Assembly (NCBI GenBank): GCA_027306855.1
Contig: DAHUYZ010000016.1
Location: 1-38,558 of the forward strand
DNA: 38,558 nt
Source: Solirubrobacterales bacterium
GTDB lineage: Bacteria > Actinomycetota > Thermoleophilia > Solirubrobacterales > Solirubrobacteraceae
Direction: 5' to 3'
The notes below the pieces were generated by a model, which worked only from the letters and a program-made list of their open reading frames with translations, searched no databases and had not been told where the DNA came from. The position numbers were made by a program, and so were the translations under genes. Positions 5,381 to 14,900 of this stretch are shown here, piece by piece; the stretch's first letter is position 1, and every line of letters begins with the position of its first letter.

Positions 5381-5734
5381 GTGAACAAGGCGAGCCTCAC
5401 CGTCGAGGAGGCAAGCGACGCGTACACCAACGCTATGCGCAATCCCGCCGCAGTGCGCCCGGGCGTCTGCCCGATTTGCAGAACCTTCCACGACCCGGCC
5501 TACGAGAGATGCGTCGCGTGCCACAGGCAGCCAAGCAATCTCGATGTCCTAGCGCCGATCACATACAGCGTCCACGCCGGCCAGATGCACGACGCCCTCC
5601 GCAACTACAAGGACGATCCGCGCCGCGATGTTCGCCGCTTCCACGCGGTGCGGCTAACGGCGATCCTCTGGCGGTTCTTGGGGCGCTCCGGTCGATTTGG
5701 GGGTGAAAAGCTCATCGCGGCAGCTCGATCGTGA
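5381..5734 (+). pseudogene. ComF-like phosphoribosyltransferase, C-terminally truncated
   Basis: The 117-aa frame starts with GTG three bases after dprA. Residues 25-50 form a zinc-ribbon with two CxxC pairs (VCPICRTF and ERCVACHRQ). Then comes DVLAPITYSVHAGQMHDALRNYKD and VRLTAILWRFL, the start of the ComF/amidophosphoribosyltransferase-like fold. From memory, intact relatives have about 230-250 aa and carry the PRPP-binding loop in the second half. Here the frame ends soon after LWRFL, and neither the same frame nor the other two frames downstream to 5880 show that half. It therefore looks like a gene that lost its catalytic end by deletion. Pairing with DprA recalls transformation genes or DprA-phosphoribosyltransferase modules. 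Confidence 0.6.
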
Positions 5735-5883: not shown

Positions 5884-6852
5884 ATGGACGCTGACGAGCG
5901 ATTGCGTGCTGGCCGTCTGGCGGCGCAGCGGCTGACGCCGGCAACGGCGTGCAAGAGCGCCGAGGAAGCGGCGTTGGCTGTGATCGGTGTCCAGGCTCAG
6001 GATCTGCGCGCCGCGGCTCTTGCATTGCGCTCGCGCGTGCCGGGCCTCACCCGAAGCGCCGTCCGGGCCGCGCCGCTCCTGCGTACGTGGACGGTCCGCG
6101 GCACGGTGCACCTGATTGCGGCGTCCGATCGGCCCTGGCTGCACGCGCTATTCGCCAGGCGAAATGCCCGTGTGTTCGGCGCGCGCTTCGAGCGCTTCGG
6201 CATCGTGGAGGAGGTTAACGCGATGTGCGGGGACGTCGCCCAGCTCTGCGGCGAGCGTCCCCGCGACCGGCCGTCGCTGCTGCGCGCGCTCATCGAGCGC
6301 GGCCACCCGTCGCTCGAGCAGGGTCCGATCAACACATTCGTTCCGTGGCTCTCGACGCAGGGGCTCATCGTCACCGACACTACCGGCCTGCTGCACGCTG
6401 CCGATCCGCCCCCGGCGGTCGACCTCGACGAGGCACTCGCGATCCTTGGCGCCCGCTACCGCGCAGGCTACGGCCCCTGCGACGCAACCGACCTCGCGAA
6501 GTGGTCCTCGCTGCCCATCACACAGGCGCGCCGGGCGCTCGAAGCCGCCGGACCGCCGAGCGACATTGACCTGTTGCCCACCGATGACACACCGCTCTGT
6601 CTGCTGCTCGCCGCCTTCGACACGCTCATGCTCGGCTACCGCACTCGCGAGCCATTCGTCGTCGCCGAGCACGACCATCACATCCTGGGGGGCGGTGGGA
6701 TGCTCAAACCCGTCGTACTCAATCGCGGAGCAGCAACGGGTACTTGGTCCATCAAGAAGGGCCGTCCCGAGCCGGCGTGGTTCGGACGGCCCACGCCCGC
6801 TCCGGCGCTCGCCCGCGAGACTGCGGACATCGAACGCTTCCTTGCATCGTAG
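5884..6852 (+). CDS. winged helix DNA-binding domain protein (HTH_42; AlkZ/YcaQ-like DNA glycosylase family)
   Basis: The 322-aa protein matches the family of tandem winged-helix proteins (HTH_42, DUF1006) that includes the DNA glycosylases AlkZ and YcaQ, which unhook alkylated bases or interstrand crosslinks. The N-terminus has MDADERLRAGRLAAQRL and then VIGVQAQD (Q37-A-Q39), which fits the catalytic Q-x-Q/Q-x-D motif of that family. The region LLRTWTVRGTVHLIAASDRPW (about 62-82) and the C-terminal segment AAFDTLMLGYRTRE....V......GGGMLKPVVLNRG are also typical. The frame stays open upstream to 5731 but that part (MMPEQQSG and on) is arginine-rich shadow sequence, so the ATG at 5884 was chosen. 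Glycosylase activity is inferred from the family. Confidence 0.8.
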   Translation: MDADERLRAGRLAAQRLTPATACKSAEEAALAVIGVQAQDLRAAALALRSRVPGLTRSAVRAAPLLRTWTVRGTVHLIAASDRPWLHALFARRNARVFGARFERFGIVEEVNAMCGDVAQLCGERPRDRPSLLRALIERGHPSLEQGPINTFVPWLSTQGLIVTDTTGLLHAADPPPAVDLDEALAILGARYRAGYGPCDATDLAKWSSLPITQARRALEAAGPPSDIDLLPTDDTPLCLLLAAFDTLMLGYRTREPFVVAEHDHHILGGGGMLKPVVLNRGAATGTWSIKKGRPEPAWFGRPTPAPALARETADIERFLAS

Positions 6853-7022
6853 CTGCGGGTAGCTTCACGATCGGCCCGCCCGAGACCTGCCTTCGGGAGC
6901 CAACCGAGCGACTGGCGGCGAGCTCGGCGCTCTCGCTCGTCAGCCTCGCGTTGGTCCGCCGATTGGGGAGCGACTAATGTTGCTGGCTGCAAACGTGCTT
7001 GAGAACGGAAAAAGGGGGCGTG

Positions 7023-7418
7023 ATGGGCGGTTATACCGTGAAGCGGATTGATGAGATGGAGGCGATCTTTCACGGCTCCTTCCGGCGCGCGGGCGCGGAG
7101 CTTGGAGTGGAGTCGTTCGGGCTTCAGGTGTTCGACATGCCTGCCGGCTCCGAGCACTACCCGGAGCACGATCACTCCGAGGATGGCCAGGAGGAGGTCT
7201 TTGTCGTGCTTCGCGGCTCGGGCGAGTTCGAGATCGAAGGTGAGCGCGTCCCAATCGACCCGGAGCGGATCATACGTATCCCCGCCGGCACCAAGCGCAG
7301 GCTGTTCCCCGGTCCCGACGGTGTCCGCATCCTCGCGCTCGGTGGCGTCCCCGGCAAGGTCTACGAGCGTCCCGAGCCCTTCAAGCTCGGTGCCCCCGAC
7401 CCTACTGCCAGCTCTTAG
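7023..7418 (+). CDS. cupin domain-containing protein
   Basis: A 131-aa single-domain cupin. The first cupin motif is seen as HYPEHDHSEDGQEEVFVVLRGSGEFEIEGE (about residues 42-71), with candidate metal ligands His and Glu. The second motif is weaker (IRIPAGTKRRLFPGPDG), lacking the usual His, so metal binding may be altered. The ATG at 7023 follows a purine-rich GGAAAAAGGGGG; a GTG directly before it (7020) is equally possible. The next gene starts 14 bases downstream and is a second cupin, so the pair is probably co-transcribed. The substrate cannot be read from sequence. Confidence 0.8.
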   Translation: MGGYTVKRIDEMEAIFHGSFRRAGAELGVESFGLQVFDMPAGSEHYPEHDHSEDGQEEVFVVLRGSGEFEIEGERVPIDPERIIRIPAGTKRRLFPGPDGVRILALGGVPGKVYERPEPFKLGAPDPTASS

Positions 7419-14804: not shown

Positions 14805-14900
14805 GCGCCCGTAGCTCAGTGGTCAACGGTTCTCTTCGGGGAGCCAAAGAGCAGCGGTCTTTCAAACCGCAGGCCGCGGGTTCGATTCCCGCCGGGCGCA
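14805..14900 (+). tRNA. tRNA-Glu (anticodon TTC) with a hairpin inserted in the D-loop
   Basis: All helices of a normal tRNA are present. The acceptor stem GCGCCCG (14805-14811) pairs with CGGGCGC (14893-14899), discriminator A at 14900. The D-stem is GCTC/GAGC (14814-14817, 14849-14852). The anticodon stem GCGGT/ACCGC has loop CTTTCAA, anticodon TTC at 14861-14863. The variable loop is AGGCC, and the T-arm is GCGGG/CCCGC with loop TTCGATT. After AGTGGT of the D-loop there is an extra stretch of about 24 bases containing a 7-bp stem, GGTTCTC (14828-14834) with GGGAGCC (14839-14845), closed by the tetraloop TTCG in the very stable C(UUCG)G context. Total length is 96 instead of about 72-76. 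C11-G24 and a five-base variable loop are also unlike the Glu identity set known from E. coli. No CCA is encoded. Confidence 0.88.

Follow-up and report, generated by a model that had tools for sequence, protein, structure and literature searches.

The locus at 14805-14900 of the window, by which we mean the whole 38,558-nt stretch of Solirubrobacterales DNA that was analysed, raises the question of what a hairpin lodged in the D-loop makes of a tRNA, and whether such a tRNA could be the one on which a cell relies to read a codon. Few parts of a tRNA are as restricted in size as the D-loop, since it builds the elbow, and a covarying arm at this very place, in the apparent sole decoder of GAA in whole genera of uncultured bacteria, probes what the ribosome, EF-Tu and GluRS will tolerate. 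The presence of the hairpin tRNA in uncultured phages as well suggests that a basic component of translation has been swapped between viruses and bacteria, a core part that was seemingly exchanged and then fixed.

A tRNA gene with a hairpin in its D-loop

A complete tRNA(UUC) gene of 96 nt lies on the + strand at 14805-14900, ending in A73 with CCA not encoded. The Rfam tRNA model (RF00005) spans all of it with a score of 68.3 bits (cut-off 29) and matches all four helices (acceptor, D, anticodon and T), in agreement with the initial annotation, which had called these helices intact and whose sequence, coordinates and placement of an additional stem around TTCG were likewise borne out. In the D-stem, GCTC at 14814-14817 (invariant in 18/18 rows of an alignment of relatives) pairs with GAGC at 14849-14852 (Rfam match and the same alignment), enclosing a D-loop of 31 nt; 25 D-loop bases stand here against one in the Rfam model. 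The first part of the loop (AGTGGTCAAC, 14818-14827) keeps A14, G15, G18 and G19, AGTGGT.AA being invariant in the 18 rows. It is followed at 14828-14845 by GGTTCTC-TTCG-GGGAGCC, a hairpin supported by covariation, with a 7-bp stem (14828-14834 with 14839-14845) and a UUCG loop (14835-14838), and then by AAA at 14846-14848, the last A of which is position 21; the equivalent (A/G)AA is present in 30/30 inserts compared. The stem had been described as perfect, and all seven positions do pair if wobbles are allowed, but two of the seven are U-G and five are Watson-Crick.

Further downstream, the anticodon TTC (14861-14863) lies in the loop CTTTCAA (14859-14865), which is matched by Rfam and invariant in the 18 rows, and the variable loop AGGCC (14871-14875, Rfam match) has five bases. 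The E. coli tRNA-Glu identity set includes U11-A24 and no base 47, giving a four-base variable loop. The window gene carries one of the two anticodons of a canonical tRNA-Glu (UUC or CUC) and departs from that set at both other points, with C11-G24 in 18/18 rows and the five-base AGGCC, as had been correctly noted from the outset. ARAGORN also detects the gene, but reads its anticodon, as 'ggag', from within the insert. A sigma-70 scan found no promoter near the tRNA gene.

The D-loop hairpin is conserved beyond chance

Distinct hairpin tRNA sequences number 31, of which 19 are from hosts and 12 are viral, and 30 were laid out for comparison of the insert. Their layout is GUGGU-(C/A/U)AA-(C/A)-[7 bp]-loop-[7 bp]-(A/G)AA-GAGC, in which the hairpin sequence is highly variable while its pairing is maintained; the loops are mostly UNCG (UUCG, UACG, UCCG) or CUCG, with UUAC, UAAC and others also present. 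Standard pairs occupy stem positions 1 to 7 in 30, 29, 29, 28, 23, 30 and 29 of the 30 sequences, counts that are lowered by L319 and L328, whose unlike loops were probably mis-registered by the fixed split. Pairs 1 to 4 each occur as three to six standard pair types, and pair 5 is lost in seven sequences, in six of them to A-G, a mismatch found there in 5/18 rows of the smaller alignment.

Conservation of the D-loop hairpin exceeds chance. In the 18-row alignment the insert stem scores 0.921 for covariation, compared with 0.294 in shuffles, none of which (0/500) reached 0.921, and the scores obtained on sliding ranged from 0.04 to 0.31. Six insert pairs show double changes, a measure that is weakly informative alone, as 72/500 shuffles reach the same number. 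Across the whole tRNA, 98.6% of the cells in the 18 rows are paired and 18/28 pairs show double changes, so that the stems are preserved among relatives through the compensatory change expected of a tRNA, the D-stem itself and the first three acceptor pairs being invariant. Folded singly, the window RNA prefers a rearranged pairing of the D-arm (-46.6 kcal/mol), and in the consensus fold of the 18 relatives the D-loop hairpin is formed.

Three genera in two families

We refer to the genus of the window as g1, in family f1, and to two genera of another family, f3, as g41 and g43. A similarity search of 41 genomes found full-length homologues in 21 of the 24 from g1 and in 0/17 others, the three g1 genomes lacking a match being 58-74% complete. 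A pattern consisting of the D-stem TAGCTCAGNGG...GAGC with a long D-loop, and hence restricted to tRNAs with this D-stem, detected the hairpin tRNA in 35/232 genomes of the order (g1 21/24, g41 11/12, g43 3/3) and did not find it in the 51 other genera of the order, leaving 3/54 genera positive. The survey of the class for an insert with a covarying stem, which the initial annotation had proposed, returned 28/399 positive genomes from an evenly drawn sample and the same three genera, now of 128. The possibility raised there that the insert might be peculiar to this assembly did not materialise; nearly all of the genomes compared are drafts, and an assembly artefact is ruled out by the occurrence of the hairpin tRNA in many independent MAGs. 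Within a subgroup of g1 the local gene order around it is held in common. One genome, G205, has two different hairpin tRNA copies on separate contigs (L140 and L149).

In a named collection in which each of 84,980 species is represented by a single genome, 38 stretches contain the hairpin tRNA, with the gene readable throughout in 37 of them. The titles of 25 are those of Solirubrobacterales or Solirubrobacteraceae MAGs, and the remaining 13 are titled Actinomycetota (4), Actinobacteria (3), Actinomycetes, Thermoleophilia, Acidimicrobiaceae, Chlamydiae, Alphaproteobacteria or plain bacterium. The Chlamydiae (L156) and Alphaproteobacteria (L159) titles are doubtful because the same sequences occur in other records of the set; the sequence of the Acidimicrobiaceae-titled L151 is unique within it.

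Partial copies of the 3' part of the gene

Several related genomes contain copies of the 3' part of the gene alone. Of 13 loci inspected, eight have such a copy by the search applied, preceded by unrelated sequence. Three copies in g41, joined to chance flanks, barely exceed the Rfam cut-off (29.3, 29.9 and 33.8 bits), and ARAGORN annotates two 3' copies, whose acceptor stems are broken, as tRNA-Glu(UUC). We rejected them as complete tRNAs on account of their low scores (at most 33.8 bits) and truncated look, and take them as remnants. The copied portion (14859-14900 on the + strand of the window) looks like an integration (att) core, and may function as one. The interval from the hairpin gene to a 3' copy in G194 encodes a DUF4143 protein and a GmrSD-type protein, G195 has a GmrSD-type protein flanked by two 3' copies, and a Mutator transposase is close to one such copy in G011; ten ORFs tested at 3' copies included no integrase. 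Since the stretches that separate the gene from a 3' copy, or one 3' copy from another (L394 and L395), code for GmrSD-type restriction proteins and DUF4143 proteins, the hairpin tRNA gene may be a hotspot of defence islands.

Which tRNA reads GAA?

The initial annotation had asked for a second, normal tRNA-Glu(TTC), and no convincing one was found in the insert genomes. In the window genome (G000, 92% complete) a full tRNA scan gave 45 hits with no second Glu(UUC), the sole other Glu tRNA being Glu(CUC). Across the g1, g41 and g43 genomes an ordinary tRNA-Glu(UUC) was found neither by similarity nor by a pattern built on the CTTTCA loop, which UUC tRNAs with other loop sequences would escape; in g1 this pattern matched only the hairpin gene, its 3' copies and sequences unlike tRNA-Glu. 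Of the 17 relatives outside g1 in the 41-genome search, 12 were shown to possess an ordinary Glu(UUC), 72-75 nt long.

The picture is less strict in G199, a g41 genome listed as 100% complete and 5% contaminated, which has 48 tRNA hits including Glu(CUC). Its hairpin gene is called Pro by ARAGORN, and, since annotation programs can misread hairpin tRNAs (as with the anticodon taken from the window insert), more of them may be hidden. A second UUC tRNA-like gene in this genome (L449:101-191, 49.6 bits) has a different D-loop hairpin and, by eye, a mismatch in the anticodon stem; a DDE transposase lies ~240 bases downstream, and no viral relative of this gene was found. The hairpin tRNA is thus the sole candidate for reading GAA in G000 and not strictly so in G199. 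The window genome also contains, beside an ordinary tRNA-Val(GAC), an extra tRNA-Val(GAC)-like gene (L068, G000:C193:28536-28608) with an anticodon-stem mismatch by eye.

GAA has kept its meaning. In a comparison based on six-frame ORFs, not all of which were checked, GAA codons of insert genomes stand opposite a conserved E of relatives in 124/132 columns, and we reject codon reassignment on this basis. Over 105 gene pairs, GAA makes up 246/1160 of the shared Glu codons in insert genomes (21.2%) and 244/1160 in relatives (21.0%), while AAA (12.1 vs 5.2%) and CAA (7.2 vs 2.0%) are raised in insert genomes, and this flat GAA beside rising AAA and CAA might reflect a mild shortage of GAA. The GluRS genes alone contain fewer GAA codons in insert genomes (27/631) than in relatives (40/493), which would hint at a general GAA shortage were it not offset by the equal shares in the 105 gene pairs. 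As GAA is used, means Glu and has no other convincing UUC tRNA, the hairpin gene should be a working GAA decoder. In G000 it is the only convincing GAA-reading gene found and, judged by its sequence, the tRNA would be both expressed and charged.

Copies in viral contigs

A Glu-pattern scan of viral contigs gave nine positives, and wider scans brought the number of confirmed viral contigs to 14, of which ten carry Glu(UUC), two carry Arg(CCU), and the remaining two are Ala(UGC) and Lys(UUU). The 19 distinct copies from hosts are without exception UUC, the host scans having been partly aimed at UUC. Phage genes accompany the hairpin tRNA in several cases, with ribonucleotide reductase and helicase genes nearby in L317 and L315, tail genes in L337 and, weakly, in L320, and head genes in L363; the phage nature of the remaining viral contigs rests mainly on IMG/VR sorting. 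ARAGORN counts 14, 29 and 28 tRNA genes in the stretches examined of L317, L318 and L376, and in L318, L320 and L376 an ordinary Glu(CUC) adjoins the hairpin Glu(UUC). When the window gene and the L318 copy were compared with cultured phages, no record matched either of them along 80% or more of its length. The 31 ORFs selected from 12 viral stretches yielded no integrase.

Ancestry of the tRNA and its synthetase

On a tree of 71-nt tRNA cores, host and viral copies are intermixed. The core of the hairpin tRNA is closest to the resident tRNA-Arg(CCG), tRNA-Arg(UCU) and tRNA-Lys(UUU), and distant from the resident Glu(CUC). A search of 17 insert genomes gave a strong GluRS match in 16, G003 being the exception, and a weaker second match in G013 only. 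In a GluRS tree of 30 rows, g1 falls within f1, and g41 together with g43 within f3, with moderate support; the only GluRS signature of insert genomes is one weak column, 117. That the tRNA alone crosses family lines whereas GluRS follows them makes horizontal transfer the simplest reading.

What the hairpin tRNA may be

We consider it likely that the gene encodes a five-stem tRNA-Glu(UUC) which keeps its arm and has replaced the ordinary tRNA in three genera, probably through exchange between phage and host. This reading is built on the architecture of the gene, the covariation, the distribution, the lack of another convincing UUC tRNA, the meaning of GAA as Glu and the phage copies, all of which are established at the level of sequence. 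The hairpin would be transcribed and would most likely persist through maturation, forming a short additional arm between positions 20 and 21, and with G18, G19 and A21 staying in place a normal elbow could form. The ordinary 72-75-nt tRNA-Glu(UUC) would have been replaced in g1 of f1 and in g41 and g43 of f3, where GAA would be read by the five-stem tRNA, and this in turn would require its charging by each lineage's own GluRS. The gene would have moved horizontally, phages that carry sets of tRNAs being the likely vehicle, although the direction of that movement can be argued either way. There is an appreciable, if less than even, chance that the same five-stem tRNA was born in a host lineage such as g1 or g41 and only later captured by phages infecting these hosts, its presence in two families then reflecting host-to-host transfer: phage tRNA genes are commonly thought to be host-derived, host and viral cores are intermixed on the tree, the gene occurs throughout whole genera, and a g1 subgroup has a common local order around it. 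Against a host origin, the viral copies vary both in insert and in anticodon (Glu, Arg, Ala, Lys), whereas the distinct host copies are 19/19 UUC, in scans partly aimed at UUC, and resident tRNA-Arg and tRNA-Lys, not resident tRNA-Glu(CUC), come closest to the core. It is tempting to go further and speculate, tentatively, that phages possess a class of five-armed tRNAs with several anticodons, that its Glu(UUC) member has become indispensable in at least three genera, and that the arm serves as a functional module, perhaps a block on the wrong synthetase or a shield from tRNA-cutting defence enzymes, the last of these being conjecture.

Other readings dispense with a five-stem translational tRNA altogether, and we regard each of them as improbable. 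Of the options put forward in the initial annotation, the covarying stem, the conserved flanks, the retention of A21 and the lack of another convincing UUC tRNA favour the stable extra domain that would alter the elbow. Splicing fared worse. An intron-like insert excised to leave an ordinary D-loop would fit its discreteness and its conserved flanks, CAA and AAA; intron-bearing tRNAs, which likewise have extra sequence within the tRNA gene, are of the archaeal bulge-helix-bulge type or contain bacterial group I or II introns. The window insert differs from both, being a hairpin of the D-loop itself with no splice motif seen and no ribozyme: inspection by eye, with no motif program, shows no bulge-helix-bulge with the D-stem at the junctions, ~24 nt is much too short for a group I or II intron, and cmscan at the gathering cut-off reports a tRNA only. 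We know of no bacterial splicing of this kind, and excision seems very unlikely. We would give equally little weight to a main role beyond translation, such as glutamyl donor for tetrapyrroles or signalling RNA, a version of the specialised role suggested at the outset; the departure from the E. coli Glu identity set and the coexistence of an ordinary Glu(CUC) in G000 speak for it, but there is no other Glu(UUC) in G000, nor by pattern in g1, and GAA is used there and means Glu, so that a purely non-translational tRNA is disfavoured. Least credible of all is a decaying passenger or functionless remnant of an att site: 3' copies of the gene do lie elsewhere in related genomes, as at integration sites, yet all helices are intact with compensatory changes, the gene is conserved across whole genera, and no convincing replacement for it was found.

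Relation to known tRNAs

With the ordinary bacterial tRNA-Glu(UUC), the probable five-stem tRNA shares its anticodon, the loop CUUUCAA, A73 and the cloverleaf, and it differs in the additional 7-bp D-loop hairpin, in a D-stem of GCUC/GAGC with C11-G24, in a five-base variable loop and in a core that more closely resembles the tRNA-Arg and tRNA-Lys of its own genome. The phage tRNA arrays described above contain the same hairpin tRNA; unlike phage-encoded tRNAs, it is here also chromosomal and genus-wide. Plasmid tRNA arrays of Mycobacterium avium hold tRNAs that are unlike the chromosomal ones, including in the D-arm, and that are regarded as redundant and likely non-essential (PMC12803027); the available portion of that paper mentions no D-loop hairpin in the array units, in contrast to the window tRNA. 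In tRNA-dependent lysogeny a phage tRNA substitutes for an essential single-copy host tRNA (PMC10865867), and such substitution would offer an available route for replacement of a host tRNA. The isotype of the viral hairpin Glu(UUC) matches that of the host, isotype alone having been compared; the published system, in the portion available, involves a prophage with an integrase and names no D-loop feature, whereas the ORFs tested here yielded no integrase. Evasion of tRNA-cutting defences by phage tRNAs has been described (PMC10264068, PMC11555353), and neither 'D-loop' nor 'D-arm' occurs in the text of either paper. In alloacceptor tRNA remolding the tRNA of one isotype comes to resemble that of another, as described for mitochondria (PMC4783518); the window tRNA adds to this a D-loop arm and, probably, horizontal transfer. 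Among the matches listed from the open-access literature, in the portions of text that were available, we found no D-loop hairpin described for a tRNA of bacteria or phages.

Other RNA genes in the viral contigs

Two contigs recovered in the viral scans, L402 and L403, proved to be chance matches spanning two neighbouring elements and were excluded from the viral set. These contigs, of 279 kb and 129 kb, each contain a sequence that matches bacterial RNase P RNA over its full length (L402:1111-1452 and L403:1571-1912; 268.5 bits), which sits amid many tRNA genes. The phage tRNA array of L376 includes a tmRNA match that barely exceeds its cut-off (6699-7089; 48 bits, cut-off 47) and a selenocysteine-tRNA match (5452-5539; 54.3 bits, cut-off 47). 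Alanyl-tRNA synthetase usually requires G3-U70, and the UGC hairpin tRNA of phage contig L352 (2235-2329) has G3-C70 instead, which makes alanine doubtful as its amino acid. Many viral contigs (within L323-L393, for example L331:2199-2266) carry an unrelated type of tRNA-like gene (GGTATT...) with a different hairpin-like insert in its D-loop, so that D-loop insertions may recur in phage tRNAs.
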